From assembly GCF_045679555.1 (NCBI RefSeq), contig NC_092089.1, positions 7,656,051-7,720,050 on the forward strand: 64,000 bases of DNA, written 5' to 3'. The position numbers were made by a program, and so were the translations under genes. Of this stretch, positions 570 to 63,462 are shown one piece after another; position 1 is the first letter of the stretch, and each line of letters begins with the position of its first letter. This stretch comes from Salvelinus alpinus (lineage: Eukaryota > Chordata > Actinopteri > Salmoniformes > Salmonidae). The notes beneath the pieces are model-generated. The model saw only the letters and a program-made list of their open reading frames with translations. It did no database searches and was not told the origin of the DNA.

Positions 570-6240
<5,671 letters not shown>

Positions 6241-22661: not shown

Positions 22662-23201
22662 CTAATCTAGCTTCTTTCGGTAAGATACTTTGTCTTTGGT
22701 TTCCTGTAGTTTATCAGAGAACATGTCTTTAGTCTCCCCCATCTTTCCAGAGAAACGTTCTTTCGTCTCCCCCATCTTTCCAGAGAAACGTTCTTTCGTC
22801 TCCTCCATCTTTCCAGAGAGACGTTCTTTCGTCTCCTCCACCTTTCCAGAGAAACGTTCTTTCGTCTCCTCCATCTTTCCAGAGAAACGTTCTTTCGTCT
22901 CCTCCATCTTTCCAGAGAGACGTTCTTTCGTCTCCTCCATCTTTTCGGAAATACCAGACAATCGTTCTTTCGTATCTTCCATTTTCCCCGAGAGTAGTTC
23001 TTTAGTTTCCTCCATTTTTTCAGAGAACAGTTCCTTAGTCTCCTCCATTTTCTCTGTGAGTTTCTCCCTGGTCTCTTCCATCCGGTCCTGCAGGTAGTCT
23101 TTGACAGGCGGCGGGGTAGAGAAGTAGCCGTGTTTACGGAGGTACTGCACTGAGAAGGACGTCCCACCCAGAGTCACTGTGTATCTGGCAGGTGTTGCAA
23201 T
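22662..23201 (-). CDS. fam210a: fam210a last exon: end of DUF1279 and repeated coiled coil
   Basis: Acceptor CCTTCAG|ATTGCA, phase 0, 179 codons, stop TAG at 22662-22664. Starts IATPARYTVTLGGTS, then PPPVKDYLQDRMEE, then tandem 11-residue repeats. One repeat carries an extra ISE. Confidence 0.93.
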   Translation of the reverse strand: MATPARYTVTLGGTSFSVQYLRKHGYFSTPPPVKDYLQDRMEETREKLTEKMEETKELFSEKMEETKELLSGKMEDTKERLSGISEKMEETKERLSGKMEETKERFSGKMEETKERFSGKVEETKERLSGKMEETKERFSGKMGETKERFSGKMGETKDMFSDKLQETKDKVSYRKKLD

Positions 23202-26078
23202 CTGAAGGAAATCAGGATAAAGAAAGCCATCAAATTCAGTAGAGACAAGTGAATTGAAGCTGATGTTGCAATCTGAGTATTTCTGCTCACCCTGAACAGG
23301 GCGTCGTATGTACAAGTCCTTTTACCTTGTACAAGTCATAGTCCGTGAGTATTCTTACCTTGTACAAGGCGTAGGCAGTGAGTTATCTTATACAAGTCAT
23401 AGTCCGTGAGTTATCTTACCTTGTACATGGCGTAGGCAGTGAGTTATCTTACCTTGTACAAGGCGTAGGCAGTGAGTTATCTTATCTTGTACAAGTCATA
23501 GTCCGTGAGTTATCTTACCTTGTACATGGCGTAGGCAGTGAGTTATCTTACCTTGTACAAGTCATAGTCCGTGAGTTATCTTACCTTGTACATGGCGTAG
23601 GCAGTGAGTTATCTTACCTTGTACAAGGCGTAGGCAGTGAGTTATCTTACCTTGTACAAGGCGTAGGCAGTGAGTATTCTTACCATGTACAAGGCGTAGG
23701 CAGTGAGTTATCTTACCTTGTACATGGCGTAGGCAGTGAGTTATCTTACCTTGTACATGGCGTAGGCAGTGAGTTATCTTACCTTGTACATGGCGTAGGC
23801 AGTGAGTTATCTTACCTTGTACATGGCGTAGGCAGTGAGTTATCTTACCTTGTACAAGGCGTAGGCAGTGAGTTATCTTACCTTGTACATGGCGTAGGCA
23901 GTGAGTTATCTTACCTTGTACAAGGCGTAGGCAGTGAGTTATCTTACCTTGTACAAGGCGTAGGCAGTGAGTATTCTTACCATGTACAAGGCGTAGGCAG
24001 TGAGTTATCTTACCTTGTACATGGCGTAGGCAGTGAGCTATCTTACCTTGTACATGGCGTAGGCAGTGAGTTATCTTACCTTGTACAAGTCATAGTCCGT
24101 GAGTTATCTTACCTTGTACATGGCGTAGGCAGTGAGTTATCTTACCTTGTACATGGCGTAGGCAGTGAGCTATCTTACCTTGTACATGGCGTAGGCAGTG
24201 AGTTATCTTACCTTGTACATGGCGTAGGCAGTGAGTTATCTTACCTTGTACATGGCGTAGGCAGTGAGTTATCTTACCTTGTACAAGGCGTAGGCAGTGA
24301 GTTATCTTACCTTGTACATGGCGTAGGCAGTGAGTTATCTTACCTTGTACATGGCGTAGGCAGTGAGGGCGTAGCCACCAGAAGAGTGATTCAGCAGACC
24401 AACAATCTTCTCTGGTAAACCAATAAACTCCAGAAAAGGCACCACATTCACTCCCCTGTGAAATACACAGTGAGGTTATTAACTAAGGCCAGATACTGCG
24501 CCTTCCCGTGAAACACTCAGTGGCCAGTTTATTAGGTACACCACCCTGCTCACCAAAACGGTTAGCTTCTATAAAACAGTGAGTCACATGACCGTGGCAG
24601 ACAGACGTTCGACTGGGGAAAAAACAAGTCAGACTAATTGACTGTCATCGCTCCACATTATGTCAGACTAATTGACTGTCCTAGCGCCACATTATGTCAG
24701 ACTAATTGACTGTCATCGCCCCACATTGTCAGACTAATTGACTGTCCTAGCCCCACATTGTCAGACTAATTGACTGTCCTAGCCCCACATTGTCAGACTA
24801 ATTGACTGTCATCGCCCCACATTATGTCAGACTAATTGACTGTCATCGCCCCACATTATGTCAGACTAATTGACTGTCCTAGCCCCACATTATGTCAGAC
24901 TAATTGACTGTCCTAGCCCCACATTATGTCAGACTAATTGACTGTCCTAGCCCCACATTATGTCAGACTAATTGACTGTCATCGCCCCACATTATGTCAG
25001 ACTAATTGACTGTCATCGCCCCACATTATGTCAGACTAATTGACTGTCCTAGCCCCACATTGTCAGACTAATTGACTGTCCTAGCCCCACATTGTCAGAC
25101 TAATTGACTGTCCTAGCCCCACATTGTCAGACTAATTGACTGTCCTAGCCCCACATTATGTCAGACTAATTGACTGTCCTAGCGCCACATTATGTCAGAC
25201 TAATTGACTGTCCTAGCCCCACATTATGTCAGACTAATTGACTGTCCTAGCCCCACATTATGTCAGACTAATTGACTGTCCTAGCCCCACATTATGTCAG
25301 ACTAATTGACTGTCCTAGCCCCACATTGTCAGACTAATTGACTGTCATCGCCCCACATTATGTCAGACTAATTGAATGTCCTAGCCCCACATTATGTCAG
25401 ACTAATTGACTGTCCTAGCCCCACATTGTCAGACTAATTGACTGTCCTAGCCCCACATTGTCAGACTAATTGACTGTCCTAGCCCCACATTATGTCAGAC
25501 TAATTGACTGTCCTAGCGCCACATTATGTCAGACTAATTGACTGTCCTAGCCCCACATTATGTCAGACTAATTGACTGTCCTAGCCCCACATATAATGGA
25601 ATCCCCAGGGAGATTAGACCAGACAGGTGACTCACTGCATAGCAGCGTAGTAGAAGGTCCCGAACCAGACGCTGGAGGTCAGGAGATGGACAGGTATCAT
25701 CACCTTCCCGTACTGCTTAAAGGTCTTCTTGAATCTCTGGACCAGACCAATGGACTTGTCCTGCAGAGGGTCTATCTCTGGGGCCTCCGGCGGGGCCTCC
25801 GGCAGGGCCTCCACAGGCAGCTTGGAGGAGTCTGCCCCGTAGACGGGCTCTGTTCCAGCCAGGCCGGGTGGGTCCTGGTCCTCCGGTTGGAGCTTGGGCC
25901 GTTCCACTGCCCTGTTAAAGGCTGAGGTACTGACCCAACGCTGGACGGGCCCGGTGGGCAGGCGGCCTACAATACACACCGACACGGCCAGGCGAGCCTC
26001 ACACACCGACAGGCCCACGACCACGGACCGCACGTAGGCCATCTGCCGCAATGCACCCTGGGACAGAACACGATGCAT
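22662..26078 (-). CDS. fam210a: fam210a: mitochondrial DUF1279 protein with lengthened coiled coil
   Basis: Join on the minus strand: 26078-25636, 24455-24344, 23201-22662, giving 364 residues; from memory the human protein has 272. All junctions are GT-AG and in phase. Domains: likely mitochondrial targeting sequence at residues 13-50 (MAYVRSVVVGL up to RWVSTS), acidic linker, DUF1279 from about 103 (DPLQDKSIGLVQRFKKTFKQ) with one membrane segment near 126-146, and a C-terminal coiled coil of twelve 11-residue repeats (KMEETKERFSG type) ending DKVSYRKKLD. Known of the family: FAM210A is a mitochondrial membrane protein tied to mitochondrial translation and to muscle and bone mass. The first ATG in the exon is at 26078; a second at 26042 sits directly at the targeting sequence and may be the true start. 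Intron 2 begins with a 31-copy array of the splice donor; intron 1 holds a 34-bp array. Confidence 0.93.
22690..23090 (-). repeat. Coding 33-bp minisatellite in fam210a (11-residue coiled-coil repeats)
   Basis: Twelve repeats of the type KMEETKERFSG, with E/K/R at charged positions and M, F/L at the hydrophobic ones. The central units are nearly identical at DNA level (TTTCCAGAGAAACGTTCTTT on the plus strand). The outer units are more divergent and align with the three repeats recalled from the human protein. Confidence 0.93.
23330..24366. repeat. 33-bp array of duplicated fam210a exon end plus 5' splice site, about 31 copies
   Basis: On the minus strand each unit reads CTCACTGCCTACGCCATG, then TACAAG|GTAAGATAA. 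That is the last 24 or so bases of fam210a exon 2 (LTAYAMYK) plus the intron donor. The true exon joins the array without a gap at 24344. Variants: TACAAG versus TTGTACAAGTCATAG (plus-strand sense) and GTAAGAATA. One unit has a broken donor (GATAAGA at about 23483). Reading on past any donor meets TAA within three codons. Confidence 0.96.
24344..24455 (-). CDS. fam210a: fam210a middle exon
   Basis: Acceptor TTTCACAG|GGGAGT, donor ACAAG|GTAAGA. It encodes GVNVVPFLEFIGLPEKIVGL and continues to YALTAYAMYK. Its 3' end is the founder of the splice-donor array. Confidence 0.92.
24510..24600. mobile_element. Fragment of a dispersed fish repeat
   Basis: CAGTGGCCAGTTTATTAGGT followed by ACACCAC is a phrase found in many fish interspersed repeats. 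Only a fragment is present, in fam210a intron 1. Family not assigned. Confidence 0.5.
24622..25594. repeat. 34/32-bp minisatellite in fam210a intron 1, about 29 copies
   Basis: Units carry GTCAGACTAATTGACTGTCC and TAGCCCCACATTAT. Units lacking the dinucleotide AT are 32 bp, and CCTAGC alternates with ATCGC. It ends about 40 bases from the donor of fam210a exon 1. Confidence 0.96.
25636..26078 (-). CDS. fam210a: fam210a first coding exon
   Basis: Donor ATGCA|GTGAGT at 25636/25635, phase 2. A clean acceptor (CTGTCTGCAG) at 26111 places the exon's 5' edge at 26110, so 26079-26110 is untranslated or, if translation starts further upstream, coding. Start 26078 is the first in-frame ATG; 26042 is the alternative. 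Confidence 0.85.
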
Positions 26079-33683: not shown

Positions 33684-34296
33684 TTATTCAGCCAGACAGT
33701 CTTTTAGGTGCCTTTTGGCAAACTCCAAGTGGGCTGTCATGTGCCTTTTACTGAGGAGTGGCATCCGTCTGGCCACTCTACAATAAAGGACTGATTGGTG
33801 GAGTGCTGCAGAGATGGTTGTCCTTCTGGAAGGTTCTCCCATCTCCACACTGTCAGTGTGACCATTGGGTTCTTGGTCACCTCCTTGAACAAGGCCTTTC
33901 TCCCCGATTGCTCTGTTTGGCAAGGCAGCCAGCTCTAGGAAGAGTCTTGGTGGTTCCAAACTTGTTCCATTTAAGAATGATGGAGGACACTGTGTTCTTG
34001 GGGACCTTCAATGCTGCAGACATGTTTTGGTACCCTTCCCCAGACATGTGCCTCAACACAATCCTGTCTCGAAGCTCTACGGACACTTTCTTTGACATGG
34101 TTTTTGCTCTGACATGCACTGTCAACTACGGGACCTTATATAGACAGGTGTGGCTTTCCAAATGCACCTGAGCTCAATTTCAAGTCTCATAGCAAAGGGT
34201 CTGAATACTTATGTAAATAAGGTATTTCTTTTTTTTATTTGTTATAAATGTGCAAACATTTCAAAAAACCTGTTTTGCTTTGTCATTATGGGGTAA
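33684..34296 (-). pseudogene. Truncated Tc1-like transposon
   Basis: Minus-strand transposase start with the helix-turn-helix region (VSVELRDRIVLRHMSGEG, then ALKVPKNTVSSIILKW) at 33877-34125, and a later part in another frame (GEPSRRTTISAALHQS) at 33684-33959. The outer end (34190-34296) has GGGTCTGAATACTTATGTAA and TTTGTCATTATGGGGTA, the usual salmonid Tc1 flank. The catalytic DDE part is missing and the frame is broken. Confidence 0.85.
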
Positions 34297-40494: not shown

Positions 40495-43400
40495 AGTCTA
40501 TGTCCTAGATCTATCAAAGCTGAACTGTATCCACCATGTCCCAGATCTATCAAAGCTGAACCGTATCCACCGTGTCCTAGATCTAACAAAACTGAACCGT
40601 ATCCACCGTGTCCCAGATCTATCAAAGCTGAACCGTATCCGCCATGTCCTAGATCTATCAAAGCTGAACTGTATCCACCATGTCCGTATCCACCATGTCC
40701 TAGATCTATCAAAGCTGAACCATATCCACCATGTCCCAGATCTATCAAAGCTGAACCGTATCCACCATGTCCTAGATCTATCAAAGCTGAACCGTATCCA
40801 CCATGTCCCAGATCTATCAAAGCTGAACCGTATCCACCACGTCCTAGATCTATCAAAGCTGAACTGTATCCACCATGTCCGTATCCACCATGTCCTAGAT
40901 CTATCAAAGCTGAACCATATCCACCATGTCCCAGATCTATCAAAGCTGAACCGTATCCACCATGTCCTAGATCTATCAAAGCTGAACCGTATCCACCCTG
41001 TCCCAGATCTATCAAAGCTGAACCGTATCCACCACGTCCTAGATCTATCAAAGCTGAACCGTATCCACCGTGTCCCAGATCTATCAAAGCTGAACCGTAT
41101 CCACCGTGTCCTAGATCTATCAAAGCTGAACTGTATCCAACATGTCCCAGATCTATCAACGCTGAACCGTATCCACCGTGTCCCAGATCTATCAAAGCTG
41201 AACCGTATCCACCATGTCCCAGATCTATCAAAGCTGAACCGTATCCACCATGTCCCAGATCTATCAAAGCTGAACCGTATCCACCATGTCCTAGATCTAT
41301 CAAAGCTGAACTGTATCCACCATGTCCTAGATCTATCAAAGCTGAACCGTGTCCACCATGTCCCAGATCTATCAAAGCTGAACCGTATCCACCATGTCCG
41401 TATCCACCATGTCCTAGATCTATCAAAGCTGAACTGTATCCACCGTGTCCTAGATCTATCAAAGCTGAACCGTATCCACCATGTCCGTATCCACCATGTC
41501 CCAGATCTATCAAAGCTGAACCGTATCCACCGTGTCCTAGATCTATCAAAGCTGAACCGTATCCACCATGTCCGTATCCACCATGTCCCAGATCTATCAA
41601 AGCTGAACCGTATCCACCATGTCCTAGATCTATCAAAGCTGAACCGTATCCACCATGTCCGTATCCACCATGTCCTAGATCTATCAAAGCTGAAACATAT
41701 CCACCATGTCCCAGATCTATCAAAGCTGAACCGTATCCACCATGTCCTAGATCTATGAAAGCTGAAACGTATCCACCATGTCCTAGATCTATCAAAGCTG
41801 AACCGTATCCACCATGTCCAAGATCTATCAAAGCTGAACCGTATCCACCATGTCCCAGATCTATCAAAGCTGAACCGTATCCACCATGTCCCAGATCTAT
41901 CAAAGCTGAACCGTATCCACCGTGTCCTAGATCTATCAAAGCTGAACCGTATCCACCATGTCCCAGATCAAAGCTAAACCGTATCCACCATGTCCGTATC
42001 CACCATGTCCTAGATCTATCAAAGCTGAACCGTATCCACCGTGTCCTAGATCTATCAAAGCTCCACTGTATCCACCATGTCCGTATCCACCATGTCCTAG
42101 ATCTATCAAAGCTCCACTGTATCCACCATGTCCGTATCCACCATGTCCGTATCCACCATGTCCGTTTCCACCATGTCCCAGATCTATCAAAGCTGAACCG
42201 TATCCACCATGTCCCAGATCTATCAAAGCTGAACCATATCCACCATGTCCCAGATCTATCAAAGCTGAACTGTATTCACCATGTCCTAGATCTATCAAAG
42301 CTGAACCGTATCCACCATGTCCGTATCCACCATGTCCCAGATCTATCAAAGCTCCACTGTATCCACCATGTCCGTATCCACCATGTCCGTATCCACCATG
42401 TCCCAGATCTATCAAAGCTGAACTGTAACCACCGTGTCCCAGATCTATCAAAGCTCTACTGTATCCACCATGTCCGTATCCACCATGTCCTAGATCTATC
42501 AAAGCTGAACTGTATCCACCATGTCCTAGATCTATCAAAGCTGAACCGTATCCACCCGGTCCTAGATCTATCAAAGCTGAACCGTATCCACCATGGCCGT
42601 ATCCACCATGTCCTAGATCTAACAAAGCTGAACTGTATCCACCGTGTCCTAGATCTATCAAAGCTGAACCGTATCCACCATGTCCTAGATCTATCAAAGC
42701 TGAACCGTATCCGCCATGTCCCAGATCTATCAAAGCTGAACCGTATCCACCATGTTCTAGATCTATCAAAGCTCCACTGTATCCACCAGGTCCGTATCCA
42801 CCATGTCCCAGATCTATCAAAGCTCCACTGTATCCACCATGTTCGTATCCACCATGTCCGTTTCCACCATGTCCCAGATCTATCAAAGCTGAACCGTATC
42901 CACCATGTCCCAGATCTATCAAAGCTGAACCGTATCCACCGTGTCCCAGATCTATCAAAGCTGAACCGTATCCACCGTGTCCCAGATCTATCAAAGCTGA
43001 ACCGTATCCACCATGTCCTAGATCTATCAAAGCTGAACCGTATCCACCTTGTCCTAGATCTATCAAAGCTGAACCGTATCCACCGTGTCCCAGATCTATC
43101 AAAGCTGAACCGTATCCACCATGTCCGTATCCACCATGTCCTAGATCTATCAAAGCTGAACCATATCCACCGTGTCCTAGATCTATCAAAGCTGAACCGT
43201 GTCCACCATGTCCCAGATCTATCAAAGTTGAACCGTATCCACCCTGTCCGTATCCACCATGTCCTAGATCTATCAAAGCTGAACCGTATCCACCATGTCC
43301 CAGATCTATCAAAGCTGAACCGTATCCACCATGTCCGTATCCACCATGTCCTAGATCTATCAAAGCTGAACCGTATCCACCATGTCCGTATCCACCATGT

Positions 43401-46400
43401 CCGTATCCACCATGTCCTAGATCTATCAAAGCTGAAACGTATCCACCATGTCCCAGATCTATCAAAACTGAACCGTATCCACCATGTCCTAGGTCTATCA
43501 AAGCTGAACCGTATCCACTATGTCCGTATCCACCATGTCCGTATCCACCATGTCCTAGATCTATCAAAGCTGGAACGTATCCACCATGTCCCAGATCTAT
43601 CAAAGCTGAACCGTATCCACCATGTCCTAGATCTATCAAAGCTGAACCGTATCCACCATGTCCCAGATCTATCAAAGCTGAACCGTATCCACCATGTCCC
43701 AGATCTATCAAAGCTGAACCGTATCCACCATGTCCGTATCCACCATGTCCCAGATCTATCAAAGCTGAACCGTATCCACCATGTCCTAGATCTATCAAAG
43801 CTGAACCGTATCCAACGTGTCCTAGATCTATCAAAGCTGAACTGTATCCACCATGTCCGTATCCACCATGTCCTAGATCTATCAAAGCTGAACCGTATCC
43901 ACCATGTCCTAGATCTATCAAAGCTCCACTGTATCCACCATGTCCGTATCCACCATGTCCCAGATCTATCAAAGCTCCACTGTATCCACCATGTCCGTAT
44001 CCACCATGTCCCAGATCTATCAAAGCTGAACCGTATCCACCATGTCCTAGATCTATCAAAGCTGAACCGTATCCACCATGTCCCAGATCTATCAAAGCTG
44101 AACCGTATCCACCATGTCCTAGATCTATCAAAGCTCCACTGTATCCACCATGTCCGTATCCACCATGTCCCAGATCTATCAAAGCTCCACTGTATCCACC
44201 AGGTCCGTATCCACCATGTCCGTTTCCACCATGTCCCAGATCTATCAAAGCTGAACCGTATCCACCATGTCCTAGATCTATCAAAGCTGAACCGTATCCA
44301 CCATGTCCCAGATCTATCAAAGCTGAACCGTATCCACCATGTCCTAGATCTATCAAAGCTGAACCGTATCCACCATGTCCCAGATCTATCAAAGCTGAAC
44401 CGTATCCACCGTGTTCTAGATCTATCAAAGCTGAACCGTATCCACCATGTCCCAGATCTATCAAAGCTGAACCGTATCCACCGTGTTCTAGATCTATCAA
44501 AGCTGAACTGTATCCACCATGTCCGTATCCACCATGTCCCAGATCTATCAAAGCTGAACCGTATCCACCATGTCCTAGATCTATCAAAGCTGAACCGTAT
44601 CCACCATGTCCCAGATCTATCAAAGCTGAACCGTATCCACCATGTCCCAGATCTATCAAAGCTGAACCGTATCCACCATGTCCGTATCCACCATGTCCCA
44701 GATCTATCAAAGCTGAACCGTATCCACCATGTCCTAGATCTATCAAAGCTGAACCGTATCCAACGTGTCCTAGATCTATCAAAGCTGAACTGTATCCACC
44801 ATGTCCGTATCCACCATGTCCTAGATCTATCAAAGCTGAACCGTATCCACCATGTCCTAGATCTATCAAAGCTCCACTGTATCCACCATGTCCGTATCCA
44901 CCATGTCCCAGATCTATCAAAGCTCCACTGTATCCACCATGTCCGTATCCACCATGTCCCAGATCTATCAAAGCTGAACCGTATCCACCATGTCCTAGAT
45001 CTATCAAAGCTGAACCGTATCCACCATGTCCCAGATCTATCAAAGCTGAACCGTATCCACCATGTCCTAGATCTATCAAAGCTCCACTGTATCCACCATG
45101 TCCGTATCCACCATGTCCCAGATCTATCAAAGCTCCACTGTATCCACCAGGTCCGTATCCACCATGTCCGTTTCCACCATGTCCCAGATCTATCAAAGCT
45201 GAACCGTATCCACCATGTCCTAGATCTATCAAAGCTGAACCGTATCCACCATGTCCCAGATCTATCAAAGCTGAACCGTATCCACCATGTCCTAGATCTA
45301 TCAAAGCTGAACCGTATCCACCATGTCCCAGATCTATCAAAGCTGAACCGTATCCACCGTGTTCTAGATCTATCAAAGCTGAACCGTATCCACCATGTCC
45401 CAGATCTATCAAAGCTGAACCGTATCCACCGTGTTCTAGATCTATCAAAGCTGAACTGTATCCACCATGTCCGTATCCACCATGTCCCAGATCTATCAAA
45501 GCTGAACTGTATCCACCATGTCCCAGATCTATCAAAGCTGAACCGTATCCACCATGTCCCAGATCTATCAAAGCTGAACCGTATCCACCGTGTTCTAGAT
45601 CTATCAAAGCTGAACTGTATCCACCATGTCCCAGATCTATCAAAGCTGAACCGTGTCCACCATGTCCCAGATCTATCAAAGCTGAACCGTATCCACCATG
45701 TCCGTATCCACCATGTCCGTATCCACCATGTCCCAGATCTATCAAAGCTGAACTGTATCCACCATGTCCCAGATCTATCAAAGCTGAACCGTATCCACCA
45801 TGTCCTAGATCTATCAAAGCTGAACTGTATCCACCATGTCCTAGATCTATCAAAGCTGAACCGTATCCACCATGTCCCAGATCTATCAAAGCTGAACCGT
45901 ATCCACCATGTCCTAGATCTATCAAAGCTGAACCGTATCCTCCATGTCCTAGATCTATCAAAGATCCACCGTATCCACCGTGTCCTAGATCTATCAAAGC
46001 TGAACTGTATCCACCATGTCCCAGATCTATCAAAGCTGAACTGTATCCACCATGTCCCAGATCTATCAAAGCTGAACTGTATCCACCATGTCCCAGATCT
46101 ATCAAAGCTGAACTGTATCCACCATGTCCCAGATCTATCAAAGCTGAACTGTATCCACCATGTCCCAGATCTATCAAAGCTGAACTGTATCCACCATGTC
46201 CCAGATCTATCAAAGCTGAACTGTATCCACCATGTCCCAGATCTATCAAAGCTGAACTGTATCCACCATGTCCCAGATCTATCAAAGCTGAACCGTATCC
46301 ACCATGTCCCAGATCTATCAAAGCTGAACCGTATCCACCATGTCCCAGATCTATCAAAGCTGAACCGTATCCACCGTGTTCTAGATCTATCAAAGCTGAA

Positions 46401-47487
46401 CTGTATCCACCATGTCCCAGATCTATCAAAGCTGAACCGTATCCACCGTGTCCCAGATCTATCAAAGCTGAACCGTATCCACCATGTCCCAGATCTATCA
46501 AAGCTGAACTGTATCCACCATGTCCCAGATCTATCAAAGCTGAACCGTATCCACCGTGTCCCAGATCTATCAAAGCTGAACCGTATCCACCATGTCCCAG
46601 ATCTATCAAAGCTGAACTGTATCCACCATGTCCCAGATCTATCAAAGCTGAACCGTATCCACCATGTCCCAGATCTATCAAAGCTGAACCGTATCCACCA
46701 TGTCCCAGATCTATCAAAGCTGAACCGTATCCACCATGTCCCAGATCTATCAAAGCTGAACTGTATCCACCATGTCCCAGATCTATCAAAGCTGAACTGT
46801 ATCCACCATGTCCCAGATCTATCAAAGCTGAACCGTATCCACCATGTCCCAGATCTATCAAAGCTGAACTGTATCCACCATGTCCCAGATCTATCAAAGC
46901 TGAACCGTATCCACCATGTCCCAGATCTATCAAAGCTGAACCGTATCCACCATGTCCCAGATCTATCAAAGCTGAACTGTATCCACCATGTCCGTATCCA
47001 CCATGTCCGTATCCACCATGTCCCAGATCTATCAAAGCTGAACCGTATCCACCATGTCCTAGATCTATCAAAGCTGAACCGTATCCACCATGTCCTAGAT
47101 CTATCAAAGCTGAACTGTATCCACCATGTCCCAGATCTATCAAAGCTGAACCGTATCCACCATGTCCGTATCCACCATGTCCGTATCCACCATGTCCCAG
47201 ATCTATCAAAGCTGAACCGTATCCACCATGTCCTAGATCTATCAAAGCTGAACTGTATCCACCATGTCCCAGATCTATCAAAGCTGAACTGTATCCACCA
47301 TGTCCCAGATCTATCAAAGCTGAACCGTATCCACCATGTCCGTATCCACCATGTCCGTATCCACCATGTCCCAGATCTATCAAAGCTGAACCGTATCCAC
47401 CATGTCCCAGATCTATCAAAGCTGAACTGTATCCACCATGTCCGTATCCACCATGTCCGTATCCACCATGTCCCAGATCTATCAAAG
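40495..47487. repeat. 7-kb array of 36-bp and 51-bp units, about 170-180 copies
   Basis: Base unit of 36 bp (AGATCTATCAAAGCTGAACC, then GTATCCACCATGTCC); a 15-bp module, CGTATCCACCATGTC, is inserted once to three times in many units. All lengths are multiples of three and the unit has no stop in several frames, so uninterrupted frames of up to 1923 codons exist on both strands. They are by-products. A block of 948 bp is duplicated inside the array (marker CCAACGTGTCC at 43812 and 44760). Confidence 0.97.
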
Positions 47488-55400: not shown

Positions 55401-58400
55401 TAATGACATTAAAGAGTTTACTAAATGTATGCATCTGGTTTTGTCTTCATTGTTTTGTTAGCCTGTGAATTTCAGTCCAGCTGTGGCAGTCAACAACAAC
55501 AACCAATAGCAGGCCTGCTTTGTACCTCAGTAGGTTGTCATGGGTCCACTGCCAGTGTGTTTGAGAGCAGAGCAGCTCCAGGGTGAAGATGTGTTGCCAG
55601 GCAACAGGGTTCAGGTCCTCTCCCTGTCGCAGGTGTTTCTGGAAGGTCATCTCAGCTGCATCTCTGACGGACGTCAACGTACGGGAAACCAACTGATCCA
55701 CGTCACTAGGAGGACTCTGGGGACACAGACATGGCAGGAAGTCAAAACTCACAATACACAAACAGGAAATGGCCTTCCCAGTGACAGAATACTGACAACT
55801 CTTCCCTCTGTTAATTGATCAAAAGGTGGAGACCAATAGATCCATAACCTGTTCATGACCACAGACCAAGCGTATAGAGATGCCATACCTTCTCCCATCC
55901 CAGGTAAGCAGTTAGGCAGTGGAGCACCTCTCCTTGAGCTTTGACCTTGGTGACCGTGTGGATGGCCTGACACACTACAGTCCTGCAGGAGAACACATTG
56001 GGCCACGTGGTCACCATGAACAGAACCAGCTTGGCTGACTCAGGCAAATCTGGGGGGGGGGACAAGAACAGAAACAAAGTCAACTCGGGCTGTGAAGTCT
56101 CGTCAGTCAACTCGGGCCGTGAAGTCTCGTCAGTCGACTCAAGCTGTAAGCAGCTGTAAACGTCAGTCAACTCAAGCTATTCAATGAAGCCATGTTACCT
56201 TCTCTAAGGACGCCGTAGGCCAGGATGTGTTTTTTTTAATAATGTAACCTTTTTTCTCCCCAATTTCGTGGTATCCAATTGGTAGTAGGGTCAATCTTGT
56301 CTCATCACTGCAACTCCCGTACGGACTCGGGAGAGGTCGAGAGCAATGCGTCCTCCGAAACACAACCCAACCAAGCCGCACTGCTTCTTAACACAGCGCG
56401 CATCCAACCCGGAAGCCAGCCGCACCAATGTGTCGGAGGAAACACCGTGCACCTGGTCAGCGTGCACTGCGCCCGGCCCGCCACAGGAGTCGCTAGTGCG
56501 CGATGAGACAAGGATATCCCTGCCGGCCAAACCCTCCCCTAACACGGACGAAGCTGGGACAATTGTGCGCCGCCCCATGGACCTCCCGGTCGCGGCCGGC
56601 TGCGACAGAGCCTGGGCTCGAACCCAGAATCTCTGGTGGCACAGCTAGCACTGCGATGCAGTGCCTTAGACAACTGCGCCACCCGGGAGGACCTTAGGTC
56701 AGGATGTGTTACCTTCTCTAAGGACGTCGTAGGTCAGGATGTGTTACCTTCTCTAAGGACGCCGTAGGTCAGGATGTGTTACCTTCTCTAAGGACGCTGT
56801 AGGCCAGGATATGTTACCTTCTCTAAGGACACCGTAGGCCAGGATGTGTTACCTTCTCTAAAGGACGCCGTAGGCCAGGATGTGTTACCTTCTCTAAGGA
56901 TGCTGTAGGTCAGGATGTGTTACCTTCTCTAAGGATGCTGTAGGCCAGGATGTGTTACCTTCTCTAAGGATGCTGTAGGCCAGGATGTGTTACCTTCTCT
57001 AAGGATGCTGTAGGCCAGGATATGTTACCTTCTTGAAGGATGCTGTAGGCCAGGATATGTTACCTTCTCTAAGGACGCCGTAACCCAGGATATGTTACCT
57101 TCTCTAAGGATGCTGTAGGCCAGGATGTGTTACCTTCTCTAAGGACGCTGTAGGTCAGGATGTGTTACCTTCTCTAAAGATGCTGTAGGCCAGGATGTGT
57201 TACCTTCTCTAAGGATGCTGTAGGCCAGGATGTGTTACCTTCTCTAAGGATGCTGTAGGCCAGGATGTGCTACCTTCTCTAAGGACGCCGTAACCCAGGA
57301 TATGTTACCTTCTCTAAGGATGATGTAGGCCAGGATGTGCTACCTTCTCTAAGGACGCCGTAGGCCAGGATGTGCTACCTTCTCTAAGGACGCCGTAACC
57401 CAGGATATGTTACCTTCTCCAAGGATGCTGTAGGCCAGGATATGTTACCTTCTCTAAGGATGCCGTAGGCCAGGATATGTTACCTTCTCTAAGGACGCCG
57501 TAGGCCAGGATGTGTTACCTTCTCTAAGGATGCTGTAGGCCAGGATATGTTACCTTCTCTAAGGATGCTGTAGGCCAGGATGTGTTACCTTCTCTAAGGA
57601 CGCCGTAGGCCAGGATGTGTTACCTTCTCTAAGGATGCTGTAGGCCAGGATATGTTACCTTCTCTAAGGATGCTGTAGGCCAGGATATGTTACCTTCTCT
57701 AAGGACGCCGTAGGCCAGGATGTGTTACCTTCTCTAAGGATGCTGAAGGCCAGGATATGTTACCTTCTCTAAGGACGCCGTAGGCCAGGATGTGTTACCT
57801 TCTCTAAGGACGCCGTAGGCCAGGATGTGTTACCTTCTCTAAGGATGCTGTAGGCCAGGATGTGTTACCTTCTCTAAGGATGCTGTAGGCCAGGATGTGT
57901 TACCTTCTCTAAGGATGCTGTAGGCCAGGATGTACCTTCTCTAAGGATGCTGTAGGCCAGGATGTACCTTCTCTAAGGATGCTGTAGGCCAGGATGTGTT
58001 ACCTTCTCTAAGGATGCTGTAGGCCAGGATGTGTTACCTTCTCTAAGGATGCTGTAGGCCAGGATGTGTTACCTTCTCTAAGGATGCTGTAGGCCAGGAT
58101 GTGTTACCTTCTCTAAGGATGCTGTAGGCCAGGATGTGTTACCTTCTCTAAGGATGCTGTAGGCCAGGATGTGTTACCTTCTCTAAGGACGCCGTAGGCC
58201 AGGATGTGTTACCTTCTCTAAGGATGCCGTAGGCCAGGATGTGTTACCTTCTCTAAGGATGCTGTAGGCCAGGATGTGTTACCTTCTCTAAGGATGCTGT
58301 AGGCCAGGATGTGTTACCTTCTCTAAGGATGCTGTAGGCCAGGATGTGTTACCTTCTCTAAGGATGCTGTAGGCCAGGATGTACCTTCTCTAAGGATGCT

Positions 58401-61400
58401 GTAGGCCAGGATGTGTTACCTTCTCTAAGGATGCTGTAGGCCAGGATGTACCTTCTCTAAGGATGCTGTAGGCCAGGATGTACCTTCTCTAAGGATGCTG
58501 TAGGCCAGGATGTACCTTCTCTAAGGATGCTGTAGGCCAGGATGTGTTACTTTCTCTAAGGATGCTGTAGGCCAGGATATGTTACCTTCTCTAAGGATGC
58601 TGTAGGCCAGGATATGTTACCTTCTCTAAGGATGCTGTAGGCCAGGATGTACCTTCTCTAAGGATGCTGTAGGCCAGGATATGTTACATTCTCTAAGGAT
58701 GCTGTAGGTCAGGATGTACCTTCTCTAAGGATGCTGTAGGCCAGGATGTACCTTCTCTAAGGATGCTGTAGGCCAGGATGTGTGCTCTGTCCCAGTCCCT
58801 CCTCTGTCGGCACAGAGCAGTGTAGACTCTAACCAGAGCCTGGAGGTGAGGCCCAGGCAGCTCAGTCTTCAGCTTCGTCAGCATCACCGACATCAGATCA
58901 TCTGCCAGAGGCTGACAAGTCACAGGACAACCATGTACCAATGATTCACAGGACAACCATGCACCAATGATTCACAGGACAACCATGCACCAATGATTCA
59001 CAGGACAACCATGCACCAATGATTCACAGGACAACCATGCACCAATGATTCACAGGACAACCATGTAAGAGGTGTTTACGTCTACAAATGAAAGGGATAC
59101 TTTAGGATCTCTGCTAGCAGATACCATAGACTTCTAGTTAGCAACTACGTTCAAACTACTCTGGGGAAGTAAATAAAGGGTCTCATTGCCAAAATCCAGA
59201 AGCATGCCTTTAAAACATCCTAAGGTAAATATGCTATGTAGACGCCGAGGCAAAGCTGTACGTGACTAACCTGATTGTTTGAGAACTCAGAGAGGACCGC
59301 CTTCTCCTCATCCCGTAACACAGGCTTCCTAGACAGATTCCCAACAAACAGGTGACTCTTGATGACAGGCAACAGGTCAAAACACTGGGCTGCTATCTTC
59401 TCTAAGGCCTGGGATACGGAGGCTTCGCCTGCTGGTTTCCCAACCAGTTTCTCCTTCTCTGTAGGCTGTGAAGAACTCCCATGTTGAGGTGTCCTGAGTA
59501 GTCGGTCAGGACTGGCTGATGTCGTGGAGGATATCTCCTTAGCAGCAGGGCCGTCCGTCGCCCCAGCAGGGCCGGGGGAGCAGTTATCCAGCCTCAGTCT
59601 TTTGGCACTCTTTGGTAGAAGCATGTTGACTCCACTTCGCTTCCCTCTTTGCTCTGTTTTGGTGAAAGCCGTGGACGAGGAGTTGATGGTTTTGAAACCA
59701 GATATCTGACTGACAGAGCTGGAGGGTGTTGTCCCCGTCTCAGCAGCAGACATACAGAGGTTTCCTCGGAGGATACTGAGAGTCCAGGCACGGGCAGACA
59801 GTTCTGGATACATGCTGTCTAGAATCCTCATGGAGTTCTCCTGGGCGGGACTAGTGGAGGAAGAGGAGGGGCTGAAGGCAGGAAGTCTCCCTGGAACAGG
59901 AACAGCGTGTTTAGGAGTGGCTGAACCAAACTGTAGTGGTGAGGAAGGGGTGGTTCGAGACGGGGAGCTCAACATCTGACCATCAGGTGCTGTTTGAGAC
60001 CCCACAGGGGAAAGAGGTCCTGCCATTGGTGGGGGAAAGGACAGTTTACCAATCCCCTGTCTTGGATTGCCAGGTTTTACCGGTCTCGGAGGAGTTACAG
60101 TGAGAGGCATCAGAAGAGGACGTAGTGGAGGACCCACTTCAAAGCGAACCTTCCCGATAGGAACTTTCCATGTGGGTTCTGGGGAGCGGCCCACAGGCAA
60201 GGCTGCTGTGGGTTCTGGGAAGTGGCCCACAGGCAAGGCTGCTGGCCTGATCCCTTCCCTCATGTCAGGGCTGAGTCTTTCAATAATAACTTTACATGAA
60301 ACGGTTTGCTGGCCGTCCCCGGGAGCCGCGCCGTCTTTCACTGAGCTGGTTTGGACTGTGTTTGATCTAACAAGACTCTTCCTGACACGCCCGCTTCTAG
60401 TACTGATCATCTCAGTCTGGGCTTTTCCACCTAGTTTCTCAGACCCTTCATCTGTCAGCTGGGACTCAGACCTTGACTCAGAGATGCAGTCGGTGGTTGT
60501 AGGATGCTTACGCTCAGCTTTCATATCCTGGTGTTGTAGAACATGGACTGGACGATCACAATCTTTCAGCGTCCCATTGTTCTCGTCACTCTGTACCTCT
60601 GTAGGAGACGGTGGACTCCTCACGTCAGACCCTGGGTCTTCAGCATCTTTCTTTCCATTCATCCTCTTCGGTTGTGTACCAGATCTCAGGAGCTTCACGT
60701 TCACCACAGGGGAAAGACACATGGGACTATGTAACCTCTTGCACACTGTATGGTTTCTGCTACTCTGAGCGTTGTGTTTCGTTGCCTGGATGTCGTCATG
60801 GAGTTCAGAGTTCTTTACAGAGATCATTAAACTGGCAGGAGAGATGTGGACACCAGATTTTAGCAGAGGTGCCAGAGACTTCTGTTCAAATGATGATGAT
60901 GATTCCTCTGCCCCAGAGGAATGCACCGTAGGATGACTGGGGGAGACCAGTCCTTCTGTAGGATGACTGGGGGAGGCCAGTCCTTCTGTAGGATGACTGG
61001 GGGAGGCCAGTCCTTCTGTAGGATGACTGGGGGAGGCCAGTCCTTCTGTAGGATGACTGGGGGAGACCAGTCCTTCTGTAGGATGACTGGGGGAGACCAG
61101 TCCTTCTGTAGGATGACTGGGGGAGACCAGTCCTTCTGTAGGATGACTGGGGGAGGCCAGTCTTTCTGTAGGATGACTGGGGGAGACCAGTCCTTCTGTA
61201 GGATGACTGGGGGAGACCAGTCCTTCTGTAGGATGACTGGGGGAGACCAGTCCTTCTGTAGGATGACTGGGGGAGACCAGTCCTTCTGTAGGATGACTGG
61301 GGGAGGCCAGTCCTTCTGTAGGATGACTGGGGGAGGCCAGTCCTTCTGTAGGATGACTGGGGGAGGCCAGTCCTTCTGTAGGATGACTGGGGGAGGCCAG

Positions 61401-63462
61401 TCCTTCTGTAGGATGACTGGGGGAGACCAGTCCTTCTGTAGGATGACTGGGGGAGACCAGTCCTTCCGTAGGATGACTGGGGGAGGCCAGTCCTTCTGTA
61501 GGATGACTGGGGGAGGCCAGTCCTTCTGTAGGATGACTGGGGGAGGCCAGTCCTTCTGTAGGATGACTGGGGGAGACCAGTCCTTCCGTAGGATGAATGG
61601 GGGAGACCAGTCCTTCTGTAGGATGACTGGGGGAGGCCAGTCCTTCCGTAGGATGAATGGGGGAGACCAGTACATCCCCAACCTGTTTACAAGAGAAACC
61701 CCCTTCATCGTCTTTATCTGATTCCTGGCCTGTAAACAACTTGTCTTGTTTATGGGGACATGCTTGAGGAGCTTGTTTCTGATCAGTTGTGTTACATTGA
61801 GTGTTAGGAGCCCATTCAGTCAGTTGATCTGGACCAGTCACTGTCTCAGCAGAACACTCAACCAGAGGACTGGGTTCCAGCTGTTTAGTGGTGTGAGTTT
61901 GAGACACGCTGGCGTCTCCTGACCGATCTTTAACGCTTTCTATTTTCTCTGAGTCCCCGTGGTTGATACTCTGACCCTCCAAGACACAGCCCTTATAACA
62001 TGGGTTAGTCTCAACCTCCATCTCTGTCATGTCCGGTGAGGAGTCCTGCACTCGTCCTCCTTGTGTCTGGGGGAGTGAGGTCTGAACGCTCCCAGGATGG
62101 ACAGAGAGGTTGCCTGGAGGCTGGACTGAGTTTGGGAGACCCTCTGTGGCTTTGGTAAAGGAGGGTAGATCAATAGAGGAGGTTTGAGTCTCTCCTGATG
62201 GGGACTGGAGGGTTTCAGTAGCTGCTTCTACCTGCATGTCTTCCTGTTCACAGACAGACACACGGTTCCTCTCTTTCTCTCCTGAGGTCCCTGTGGCCAG
62301 ATCAGGGCTTTCTCTCGGAGTAGAATGAACTCTGTCTGATGGTAGTTCCACTGAGGAGTCTGCAGGTTGTTGTCCTGCCAACACAAGGGCCATCTGATTG
62401 GCTGGTCCAGGTTGCTGTCCTGCTGTCTGATTGGCTGGTCCTGTAGCGTAGACAGGGTGGTTTCTGTTCTCTAGAGGAGATCTGGTCTCTCCAGCTCCTG
62501 ACTCCAAGACATCATCCAACCTCTCCTGAGCTGAGGAGCAGGGTAAGGGGGAGAGGACAGGGGGCAGCGGCTTGAACCAGTCCAGGATCTCCTCGACTGA
62601 TCTACTATGTTTATGGCCTGGCGGGTCACTGTTCCTGCTGGGTCCCTGGCCTGCCGGGTCACTGTTTCTGCTGGGTCCGTGGCCTGCCGGGTCACTGTTT
62701 CTGCTGGGTCCGTGGCCTGGCGGGTCACTGTTCCTGCTGGGTCCGTGGCCTGGCGGGTCACTGTTCCTGCTGGGTCCGTGGCCTGCCGGGCCACTGTTCC
62801 TGCTGGGTCCGTGGCCTGCCGGGTCACTGTTCCTGCTGGGTCCGTGGCCTGCCGGGTCACTGTTCCTGCTGGGTCCGTGGCCTGCCGGGTCACTGTTCCT
62901 GCTGGGTCCTTGGCCTGCCGGGTCACCGTTCCTGCTGGGTCCGTGGCCTGCCGGGTCACCGTTCCTGCTGGGTCCGTGGCCTGCCGGGTCACCGTTCCTG
63001 CTGGGTCCGTGGCCTGGCGGGTCACTGTTCCTGCTGGGTCCGTGGCCTGGCGGGTTACCGTTCCTGCTGGGTCCGTGGCCTGCCGGGTCACTGTTCCTGC
63101 TGGGTCCGTGGCCTGGCGGGTTACCGTTCCTGCTGGGTCCGTGGCCTGCCGGGTCACCGTTCCTGCTGGGTCCGTGGCCTGCCGGGTCACCGTTCCTGCT
63201 GGGTCCGTGGCCTGCCGGGTCACCGTCAGGTCTGTGAGGTTCAACTGTGCTGCTGTCCTGTAGGTGCTCCTTGAACTGCTGTTTCCTCCTGGCTGTGAGT
63301 GAGAGAGACAGAGATATAATGATGTTCTGGTCTGTTGTAACAAGGGGAGGTCCATTAAATCATATGACATCATTACAATGTGTCCTGAATACATACCAGG
63401 GAGGTGTGATGAGGGAGGAGCTACACACACCCACAGATCCTCCAGCAGCCTCTGGATCTTCT
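52298..63462 (-). CDS. ice1: ice1: little elongation complex subunit 1 (3' half of the gene)
   Basis: Minus-strand join: 63462-63397, 63292-59271, 58911-58752, 56049-55889, 55716-55526, 54452-54352, 54246-54148, 52479-52298. Upstream exons with the N-terminal coiled coil lie beyond the window. Phases agree at every junction, and the 4022-base exon is exactly 2 + 1340 codons without a stop. Recognised by [15 protein letters not shown] near the start of the large exon and by the C-terminal block from [20 protein letters not shown] through [40 protein letters not shown] and [17 protein letters not shown], which follows the ICE1 (KIAA0947) family. Known of the family: ICE1 scaffolds ELL, ICE2 and ZC3H8 for RNA polymerase II transcription of small nuclear RNA genes and localises to Cajal and histone locus bodies. 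Oddities: two coding minisatellites and a 60-copy splice-donor array. Confidence 0.92.
52602..52888. repeat. 16/14-bp minisatellite in the last ice1 intron, about 19 copies
   Basis: Units CCCAGTCCCGATCCTG (16 bp) flanked on both sides by CCCAGTCCCGCCTG (14 bp). Confidence 0.94.
52985..53370 (+). mobile_element. tRNA-headed salmonid SINE (SmaI/SlmI-type), plus orientation
   Basis: Head GGCCTCCCGGGTGGCGCAGT, B-box text GTGTTCGAGCCCAGGCTC, then GGCGGGCCGGGCGCAGTG, GTGTTTCCTCCGACACATTG, GTGTTAAGAAGCAGTGCGGC and the tail ATTGGATACCACGAAATAGG. The family name is approximate. A minus-orientation copy lies at 56228-56690. Confidence 0.85.
53393..54107. repeat. 28-bp minisatellite in an ice1 intron, about 25 copies
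   Basis: Units carry GTTAGTCCGTCTGAGCAGAA and CGACTGAC, with CGACTG/AGACTG/TGACTG variants clustered in blocks. It ends about 40 bases from an ice1 exon. Confidence 0.96.
54148..54246 (-). CDS. ice1: ice1 exon ([10 protein letters not shown]...)
   Basis: Acceptor CGTTAG|GACGCC, donor GAAG|GTAATC. It encodes [20 protein letters not shown] and on to FARHGRSE. Confidence 0.9.
54352..54452 (-). CDS. ice1: ice1 exon ([10 protein letters not shown]...)
   Basis: Acceptor GTCTTAAAG|TAAAGAG (a weak acceptor, chosen because it keeps frame and restores the family's S-K-E-L-W-P-V-M), donor CATAG|GTGGGT. Encodes [20 protein letters not shown] and on to VAAVLRLI. Confidence 0.85.
54552..54620. repeat. 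16-bp repeat, four copies
   Basis: Units GCTAGCCATGCTAATC in an ice1 intron. Confidence 0.93.
54855..55045. repeat. 60-bp repeat, three copies
   Basis: Units carry ACATAGAACAGATCTACCTC and GGCTTTCAATGAGAATGACA, a phrase also seen as a dispersed salmonid repeat. Confidence 0.92.
55526..55716 (-). CDS. ice1: ice1 exon ([10 protein letters not shown]...)
   Basis: Acceptor GTCCCCAG|AGTCCT, donor CTGAG|GTACAA. Starts [18 protein letters not shown] and ends QWTHDNLL plus two bases. Confidence 0.9.
55889..56049 (-). CDS. ice1: ice1 exon ([10 protein letters not shown]...)
   Basis: Acceptor run of C then CAG|ATTTGC, donor GAGAAG|GTATGG. Encodes [20 protein letters not shown] and on to TAYLGWEK. 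Confidence 0.9.
56195..58751. repeat. 35/32-bp array of duplicated ice1 exon end plus 5' splice site, about 60 copies
   Basis: On the minus strand each unit reads CACATCCTGGCCTACAGC, then ATCCTTAGAGAAG|GTAACA: a copy of the last 32 or so bases of the preceding ice1 exon ([10 protein letters not shown]) plus the donor. The real exon joins the array at 58752 with donor AGAAG|GTACAT. Units lacking AAC are 32 bp. Exonic third-base variants are common (GATGCTG/GACGCCG on the plus strand). A SINE (56228-56690) sits inside the far end. Confidence 0.96.
56228..56690 (-). mobile_element. tRNA-headed salmonid SINE (SmaI/SlmI-type), minus orientation, inside the donor array
   Basis: Same family as 52985-53370, reversed: starts with a T-run, CTCCCCAATTTCGTGGTATC, then CGCCGCCCCATGGACCTCCC, and ends GCGCCACCCGGGAGG. 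It is flanked on both sides by ice1 array units. Confidence 0.87.
58752..58911 (-). CDS. ice1: ice1 exon whose end founded the donor array
   Basis: Acceptor CTTGTCAG|CCTCTG, donor AGAAG|GTACAT, 53 codons plus one base: [20 protein letters not shown] on to [11 protein letters not shown]. Confidence 0.92.
58915..59068. repeat. 26-bp repeat, about five copies
   Basis: Units carry CACAGGACAACCATGCACCA and ATGATT, in an ice1 intron right before the exon's acceptor. Confidence 0.92.
59090..59218. mobile_element. Fragment of a dispersed salmonid repeat
   Basis: CTGCTAGCAGATACCATAGA, then GGGTCTCATTGCCAAAATCC. It shares its right end with the 41-bp array at 21826-22203. Confidence 0.6.
59271..63292 (-). 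CDS. ice1: ice1 giant exon
   Basis: Acceptor CTCACAG|CCAGGAGG, donor CAATCAG|GTTAGT, 4022 bases. In the correct frame it starts [20 protein letters not shown], passes through an 11-residue repeat tract, [10 protein letters not shown], a low-complexity S/T/P/Q-rich middle, a 10-residue repeat tract, a basic S/T-rich part ([12 protein letters not shown]), and ends [12 protein letters not shown] competing open frame in the 33-bp tract is a by-product of its period. Confidence 0.9.
60928..61672 (-). repeat. Coding 30-bp minisatellite in ice1 (10-residue repeats, about 25 copies)
   Basis: Encodes [20 protein letters not shown] repeats. The plus strand reads GGATGACTGGGGGAGGCCAG, then TCCTTCTGTA. 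The A/V alternation results from GGCC/GACC changes. In frame throughout. Confidence 0.96.
62605..63234 (-). repeat. Coding 33-bp minisatellite in ice1 (11-residue repeats, about 19 copies)
   Basis: In the ice1 frame it encodes [22 protein letters not shown] repeats. The plus strand reads GGCCTGCCGGGTCACTGTTC, then CTGCTGGGTCCGT. No stop in any unit. Confidence 0.95.
63397..63462 (-). CDS. ice1: ice1 exon ([13 protein letters not shown]...)
   Basis: Acceptor TTTTACAG|AGAAGA, donor CCCTG|GTATGT. 66 bases encode [20 protein letters not shown] and P, matching the ICE1 stretch just before the giant exon. Confidence 0.87.

Follow-up and report, generated by a model that had tools for sequence, protein, structure and literature searches.

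The closest described system is the 31-bp VNTR of human CBS, c.1444_1467+7(16_21), which is given 16-21 copies in PMC2630376 and is placed where exon 13 meets intron 13 in PMC5188458 and in a table row of PMC1395315. By its name, each unit holds the 24 terminal bases of the exon and seven intron bases that include the donor (PMC2630376), and the review PMC5188458 reports lower CBS activity with more repeats. We find the same layout in ice1 of Salvelinus alpinus, in a 64,000-nucleotide stretch of contig NC_092089.1 (the window). Its parts, in the order in which the gene reads them, are as follows.

58752..58911, minus strand: ice1 coding exon, 160 nt, with predicted borders; its terminal 29 bases form copy 0 of the array, and its donor, GTACAT, begins at 58751
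56695..58783, minus strand: ice1 donor-spanning minisatellite, about 60 copies of 35/32-bp units made of 29 exon bases plus GTAACA or GTA
about 56230..56695, minus strand: tRNA-derived SINE, borders approximate, which cuts the next-to-last array copy and has its A-rich tail at the low-coordinate end
56193..56227, minus strand: last array copy, with donor GTAACA, continuing into the unique intron GTAACATGGCTTC
56050..56198, minus strand: residual unique intron, 149 nt from last donor to acceptor
55889..56049, minus strand: following ice1 exon, 161 nt, read in frame and free of stops solely from the first donor

TRF reports the array at 56695-58783 with period 35, 60.4 copies and 93% matches. 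Beyond the exon's own end there are 60 further copies of its terminal 29 bases, each joined to a GTA donor, and the units measure 35, 32 or 36 bp. Splitting the array at the core yields, after the copy that belongs to the exon, 59 complete intronic copies, a further one that the SINE interrupts and that has no donor left, and a final copy. Up to the SINE, and with the exon copy included, 50 of the 60 whole units are 35 bp long, nine are 32 bp and one is 36 bp; the nine 32-bp units all lie within the first 25 copies. Sixty near-identical units placed head to tail cannot be chance. The original prediction, of about 60 copies of an exon end and its donor, thus holds for 56695-58783, but it had run the array from 56195, and the stretch at about 56230-56695 is the SINE, which we take to be of a salmonid type. 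The intron ends at 56050 and is now 2702 nt long. The exon borders are predicted from the sequence, and they keep the protein continuous with a human ICE1 fragment. The open frame containing the exon at 55526-55716 matches Pfam ICE1_C (E 5.5e-22). No second ice1 copy with an empty site was among the seven matches returned by our search.

Counting the exon's own, ice1 has 61 donors: 47 AAG/GTAACA, nine AAG/GTACAT, three AAG/GTAGCA, one AAT/GTAACA and one AAA/GTAACA. The first is GTACAT and scores 1.35, below the 2.78 of the 47 later GTAACA donors, on a frequency table. An open message is predicted from this first donor only (1/61), and each of the other 60 leads to a premature stop; use of the second donor would add 32 bases, with a frameshift. 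The difference between first and later donors, the frameshift and the later stops had all been foreseen. Differences from the consensus increase along the array (Spearman 0.50, p 5e-5): the first 30 copies carry 0.43 on average, the last 30 carry 2.03.

The same architecture had been claimed for two unrelated genes of the window, and this proved correct. The second gene is fam210a, and a third, ldlrad4, has a counterpart at an acceptor.

23322..24367, minus strand: fam210a donor-spanning array, 33-bp units of 24 exon bases plus GTAAGATAA, 31.8 copies by TRF
24344..24455, minus strand: fam210a exon, ending in the 24 bases that form copy 0 of the array above
5577..5720, plus strand: ldlrad4 acceptor-spanning array, about three copies of a polypyrimidine tract, TAG and the first exon bases

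Only the first of the 30 donors found in fam210a gives an open message, and in ldlrad4 the native stop is reached only from the exon-adjacent acceptor. The present fam210a intron is 1142 nt, with a residual intron of 124 nt. Polarity along the fam210a array is weak (Spearman 0.30, p 0.09, counting one row that is not part of the array). Recursive splicing, or a zero-length exon, was considered and rejected for ice1: by eye, the unit CATCCTTAGAGAAG/GTAACA has no polypyrimidine tract before AG/GT. The ldlrad4 units do have such a tract. A probe for rnmt gave no match above 24 bits in the window.

It seems probable that the ice1 array is a minisatellite grown from a tandem duplication over the pre-existing exon-intron junction of a short intron, and that the gene works through its exon-side donor. 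The founding event would be a duplication that fused the start of the intron, immediately past the donor, to the end of the exon, with three or four bases of homology at the join. In ice1, ACA is common to the exon (..GCACA/CATCC) and the intron (GTAACA/TGG). In fam210a the shared bases are CTCA: the intron of its paralogue starts GTAAGAATGCTCAT, three array units have GTAAGAATACTCAC, and CTCACTG stands in the exon. Matches of this length can also arise by chance. Unequal exchange or slippage may then have multiplied the unit, donor included, to about 60 copies, while selection on the protein would fix the exon's own copy, leaving neighbouring copies near-identical and far ones free to drift. 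These steps are read from the sequence, with the selection and the exchange mechanism inferred; the two that follow are extrapolated from published work on other genes. Growth would have taken the short intron far beyond 250 nt, the range of pairing across the exon, with the exon-side donor being used, and any leakage to a later donor would end at a stop codon, presumably exposing the message to nonsense-mediated decay. The array might then act as a copy-number-dependent drag on output, like that reported for human CBS.

The short starting intron is supported by the fam210a paralogue, which has a 126-nt intron with one donor at the same site, and by the residual introns of 124 and 149 nt; the ancestral ice1 intron itself is deduced solely from the 149-nt residue. 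Gain of a new intron where none had existed does not fit fam210a, given the intron of the paralogue, and for ice1 only the residue speaks on this point.

Published data on competing donors bear on the later steps. In the minigenes of PMC9225289 the upstream of two identical donors was used exclusively with 365-nt flanking introns, and the switch between intron and exon definition lay near 250 nt. The same paper reports that 86% of events were dominated by the stronger donor, that the downstream one had the advantage in about 60% before events were filtered for strength, and that two weakened equal donors gave exon skipping in larger exons. Because the first ice1 donor scores as the weaker one, these last three results mean that donor leakage or exon skipping in ice1 could be large.

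How often arrays span donors was assessed with myosin exons from elsewhere in the same genome. The sample was 80 of 155 matches; matches with internal stops, the first-listed one (a single match covering positions 2-679), several listed low-score matches and the unlisted ones were left out. Flanks were 350 bases for 60 exons and 200 bases for 20, and borders were set automatically for 77 of the 80 donors and 77 of the 80 acceptors. Arrays with a period below 14 or a score below 60 were excluded. The counts also omit an ACAC-rich array (in L084 and L126), a coding array on the downstream side of donor 63397, a further array close to acceptor 5713, and the one close to acceptor 63292, which had entered the counts at 63462. 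After inspection of the sequence, two arrays were counted as spanning that the merge rule had placed 16 bases inside the intron (L103) and 52 bases off the acceptor (L084). Donor-spanning arrays were found at four of the 80 donors, three with at least six copies, and acceptor-spanning arrays at one of 80. Such arrays thus recur, as the original prediction of junctions as recurrent seeds supposed, but its further idea that junctions are preferred for seeding is unproven (P 0.015-0.26).

That preference, in which exon-donor junctions are favoured birthplaces of minisatellites, through a mutational hotspot or a benefit of extra donors, beyond random hits in a repeat-rich genome, is a tentative alternative. 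Besides the four spanned myosin donors, it draws on the starts of the myosin arrays between the junction and +200, where four of eight span the junction (P 0.019-0.040, units of 35 or 45 bp), and on all donors pooled, where six of 15 span (P 0.015-0.039) against two of 16 for acceptors (P 0.70-0.81). These values weaken to P 0.06-0.12 (four of 11) for myosin with ice1 5' exons and to P 0.04-0.26 without the two-copy array L120, and the donor-acceptor contrast gives a Fisher P of 0.11. When the 48 minisatellites of the window are placed at random, they span a mean of 0.75 donors, and at least two, the number observed, in 17% of trials; a stricter run with 43 arrays, refusing wholly exonic placements, gives 0.90 and 23%. 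The window was moreover picked for its arrays, and the seeding test was devised after the data had been seen. Genome-wide, three AGGTAAGT in a row at spacings of 10-40 bases are rarer than the reversed pattern, with 2553 (863+1690) against 7451 (3455+3996) overlapping matches, a few long arrays accounting for those listed. These counts speak against enrichment of consensus donors in arrays; with overlapping matches they were not used as a test. Across window (P 0.17-0.23) and samples (P 0.015-0.26, depending on pooling), a donor preference beyond chance is only suggestive. We are doubtful that donor-spanning arrays form a genome-wide class here, covering several percent of coding donors more densely than chance, seeded by short homology and self-protecting past about 250 nt.

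An array kept for regulation, with donor competition or alternative donor use selected, for example to throttle ice1, is improbable. Sixty competing donors with poison frames would suit it, as would the activity of human CBS, reportedly lowered by repeat number (PMC5188458), but ice1 has no sign of tuning: the first donor is not strengthened and far copies drift. Three ice1 pieces are also less well folded than shuffled versions of themselves (z +2.13, +1.47, +1.15), so that, with a fam210a piece at z +0.47, none of the pieces did better than shuffled sequence. Structure hiding the later donors was likewise rejected, as an unpaired-probability scan of the first 900 nt from the ice1 exon start gave low accessibilities, 0.001-0.02, at 21 of 22 donors, first and later alike, which fails to single out the first. 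Long near-identical tandem arrays are difficult to assemble, and the ice1 array is of that type; its exact copy number in the assembly could be wrong. An array miscopied outright by the assembler is nevertheless very improbable, as its variants are ordered, its units fall into two main lengths, a SINE lies within its far end, and the same architecture occurs at unrelated loci.

The array makes ice1 a natural gene with 61 near-identical consecutive competing 5' splice sites, one of them predicted to be free of premature stops. It therefore allows a direct test, in living tissue, of how one donor is chosen from equals and of whether intron definition gives way to exon definition, as predicted, when an intron lengthens. 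Self-protection, if true, would mean that exon definition lets the exon-side donor win and that long arrays are spared a selection to which short ones are exposed. Were the genome-wide class real, thousands of genes could carry tens of competing donors each, and if several percent of donors are alike, the arrays must be taken into account when genes are predicted and variants called in such genomes.

The original prediction knew of no described class of such repeats, and here it is contradicted by the CBS VNTR and by the minisatellites at exon-intron boundaries of PMC2812944. We found no salmonid report of donor-spanning arrays in the literature within our reach, most subscription journals lying outside it. 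The minisatellites described in PMC2812944, from human duplicated genes, have units of about 30 bp, lie in some cases at exon-intron boundaries and alter gene structure; they average four copies and are tied to possible new introns, whereas here the intron pre-exists. Intron gain by tandem duplication, as described, likewise duplicates AG/GY and yields introns with premature stops, but it begins within an exon and makes a new intron, where ice1 starts from an existing junction. Human CBS also has 844_845ins68, a duplicated intron 7/exon 8 junction; of the two splice sites that compete there, one is strongly preferred (PMC2630376). It resembles the ldlrad4 acceptor array by position, but is a single 68-bp duplication and no array. 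PMC2630376 calls its sites donors; a junction of intron 7 with exon 8 is by position an acceptor. The donor-spanning layout of ice1 is not a new class, being already known in the CBS 31-bp VNTR. As in that repeat, the exon 3' end (its border predicted) and donor lie within the unit and there are more than 10 copies (60.4); ice1 has 61 donors against 16-21 copies, and the CBS number differs between people whereas the ice1 array is known from one assembly. Taken alone, the ice1 array is an extreme member of the kind known from human CBS.

The predicted ice1 exon 58752-58911 (minus strand) ends in CACACATCCTGGCCTACAGCATCCTTAGAGAAG, with GTACAT as the intron start, and the unit repeated head to tail is the last 29 exon bases plus GTA or GTAACA. 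TRF placed the array at 56695-58783, with 60.4 copies of period 35. Splitting the array at its core yields the copy at the exon end and 59 complete copies within the intron, then one interrupted by a SINE and a final one that continues into unique intron. Ahead of the SINE there are 60 complete units: 50 of 35 bp, nine of 32 bp and one of 36 bp. The predicted protein identifies the host gene as ice1: the open frame containing exon 55526-55716 matches Pfam ICE1_C (E 5.5e-22), and a C-terminal fragment of human ICE1 aligns with the window in six stretches. No second ice1 copy was found when the genome (2.37 Gb, 928 contigs) was searched, all seven matches returned lying inside the window. As a 26-bp array (58920-59065, 5.6 copies) stops 9 bases short of the acceptor, the exon is flanked by arrays on both sides. 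The large ice1 exon holds two coding minisatellites, 60928-61671 (30 bp x 24.8) and 62614-63223 (33 bp x 18.5), both with units that are multiples of three and both within a 1379-aa open frame.

Counting the exon's own, we found 61 donors in ice1. For each donor we joined the exon, plus any array sequence preceding that donor, to the following exon at their predicted borders. Only the first donor gave an open frame; all 60 later donors ran into a stop, 39 shifting the frame and 21 keeping it. The original prediction that proximal and distal donors differ in strength was borne out: on a frequency table, the first donor scores 1.35 against 2.78 for the 47 GTAACA donors, the other ten coding donors in the window ranging from -1.18 to 6.85 on the same table. 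The difference points the opposite way to that of a tuned system.

The window's other donor-spanning array, in fam210a (23322-24367), repeats a 33-bp unit of 24 exon bases and 9 intron bases. Among the 30 donors found, again only the first gives an open frame; the six later donors listed share an identical stop at codon 40, the TAA in the first array unit (K-V-R-stop). A fam210a paralogue on another contig, with protein identities of 78% and 77% in two exons and 65% in a third, has a 126-nt intron with a single donor, GTAAGAATGCTCAT, and no array. The present introns are 1142 nt in fam210a and 2702 nt in ice1, of which 124 nt and 149 nt, respectively, lie downstream of the last donor. Given these residues and the length of the paralogous intron, both arrays appear to occupy formerly short introns; the paralogue shows this for fam210a, and we infer it for ice1. 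The last fam210a exon carries a degenerate 33-bp coding repeat (22726-23082) with a repeated EETKE-like motif.

Such arrays could have arisen when short homologies led to a tandem duplication that later expanded. In the ice1 unit, intron GTAACA is joined to exon CATCC, with ACA common to both; in fam210a CTCA is common at the junction, provided that the ancestral intron start resembled the paralogue and three array units. These homologies are compatible with duplication and expansion, though three or four matching bases may also be chance. Divergence in ice1 rises with distance from the exon (Spearman 0.50, p 5e-5), with mean differences per copy of 0.43 in the 30 exon-near units and 2.03 in the last 30; the trend in fam210a is weak (Spearman 0.30, p 0.09).

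At the ldlrad4 exon 5713, the stretch 5577-5720 holds about three copies of a unit made up of the polypyrimidine tract, the TAG and the opening bases of the exon. Among its four AG|GT acceptors, the exon-adjacent (last) one alone reads to the native stop. Junction arrays are therefore found at both intron ends.

The window itself makes no case for a preference for junctions. Minisatellites make up 65% of it, against a mean of 27% (range 0 to 100%) in 20 arbitrary 3-kb genome stretches. For a chance expectation, each of the 48 window arrays was reduced to one unit and given a random position relative to the 11 coding donors and 14 acceptors. A mean of 0.75 donors was then spanned; two or more donors had P 0.17, and 24% of trials spanned at least three junctions. 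Refusing wholly exonic sites (43 arrays) gave a mean of 0.90 donors, P 0.23 and three or more junctions in 33%. Four of the 20 arbitrary stretches (L046, L049, L052 and L065) are 99-100% tandem repeat. Within the window, 40500-47487 is about 7 kb of a single minisatellite, whose 36-bp units contain a 15-bp sub-unit and which is open for 2353 aa in one frame, and 33880-34125 is a Sleeping Beauty type transposase helix-turn-helix fragment (Pfam HTH_SB, E 2.5e-21).

Outside the window, the sample consisted of 80 myosin head family matches, each covering a single exon. Arrays spanned the donor in four of the 80 (95% interval 1.4-12.3%) and the acceptor in one (L084):

Donor-spanning arrays at myosin exons
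L103, G000:C13:37358547-37359396: 40 bp, 10 donors in view
L126: 53 bp, 7 donors in view
L128, G000:C18:15427307-15428195: 42 bp, 6.6 copies
L120: 59 bp, 2.2 copies

Recurrence of donor-spanning arrays is thus firm. Later donors in L103 and L128 are near letter-for-letter copies of the exon's own, and in L126 five of the six have final exon bases unlike those of the exon itself. L103 has strong CAG|GTAAGG donors, and all nine later donors in view lead to stops; its array extends past the end of the stretch analysed. The L128 unit preserves the reading frame and has no stop (VGEVTYQHYSYLVQ); all six donors in view remain open and in frame, so that donor choice there could add 14 residues per unit. 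L084 (G000:C1:14563379-14564252) is an array of 40-bp units that each include a complete acceptor, CTTCTCCTCAG|G, and it runs up to a myosin exon; L126 is the following exon in that gene. Upstream of the window lie six more ice1 donors, none of them spanned; at three of these an array starts 4, 12 and 45 bases away. At an ice1 5' exon (L066 4325-5182, G000:C4), a 43-bp array begins 4 bases into the intron, flush with the donor, the exon end not included.

We then asked what share of the arrays that begin between the junction and +200 span it. This share was 4/8 for myosin donors (P 0.019-0.040), 4/11 with the ice1 extension donors added (P 0.06-0.12) and 6/15 for all donors (P 0.015-0.039; 0.04-0.26 without L120). 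Acceptors gave 2/16 (P 0.70-0.81), and donors versus acceptors a Fisher P of 0.11. As this test was devised after the data had been inspected, we take the result as a hint that arrays favour donors beyond chance.

Work on competing donors bears on how the genes may cope. PMC9225289 reports that, of two equal donors with 365-nt flanking introns, the upstream one is used exclusively, that short introns favour the downstream one, and that the switch lies near 250 nt. The study also gives the stronger donor as dominant in 86% of events, the downstream donor as preferred in about 60% before strength filtering, and exon skipping as the outcome where both donors are weak and the exon large. Array growth would itself push the ice1 and fam210a introns into the regime in which the first donor wins, and the risky stage would be low copy number within a 150-nt intron. 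Doubt about this scenario comes chiefly from the weakness of the first ice1 donor.

The earlier view that no class of such repeats had been described is contradicted by the human CBS 31-bp VNTR, c.1444_1467+7(16_21) (PMC2630376), whose unit, read from that name, would hold 24 exon bases and 7 intron bases. The literature searched yielded no salmonid report of donor-spanning arrays. CBS activity falls with more repeats, according to a review (PMC5188458). CBS also has 844_845ins68, which duplicates the intron 7/exon 8 junction and leaves two sites in competition, one of them strongly preferred (PMC2630376), and minisatellites at human exon-intron boundaries are discussed in PMC2812944. With the CBS VNTR and the human boundary minisatellites on record, the ice1 array is, on this comparison, an unusually long case of a layout already known.
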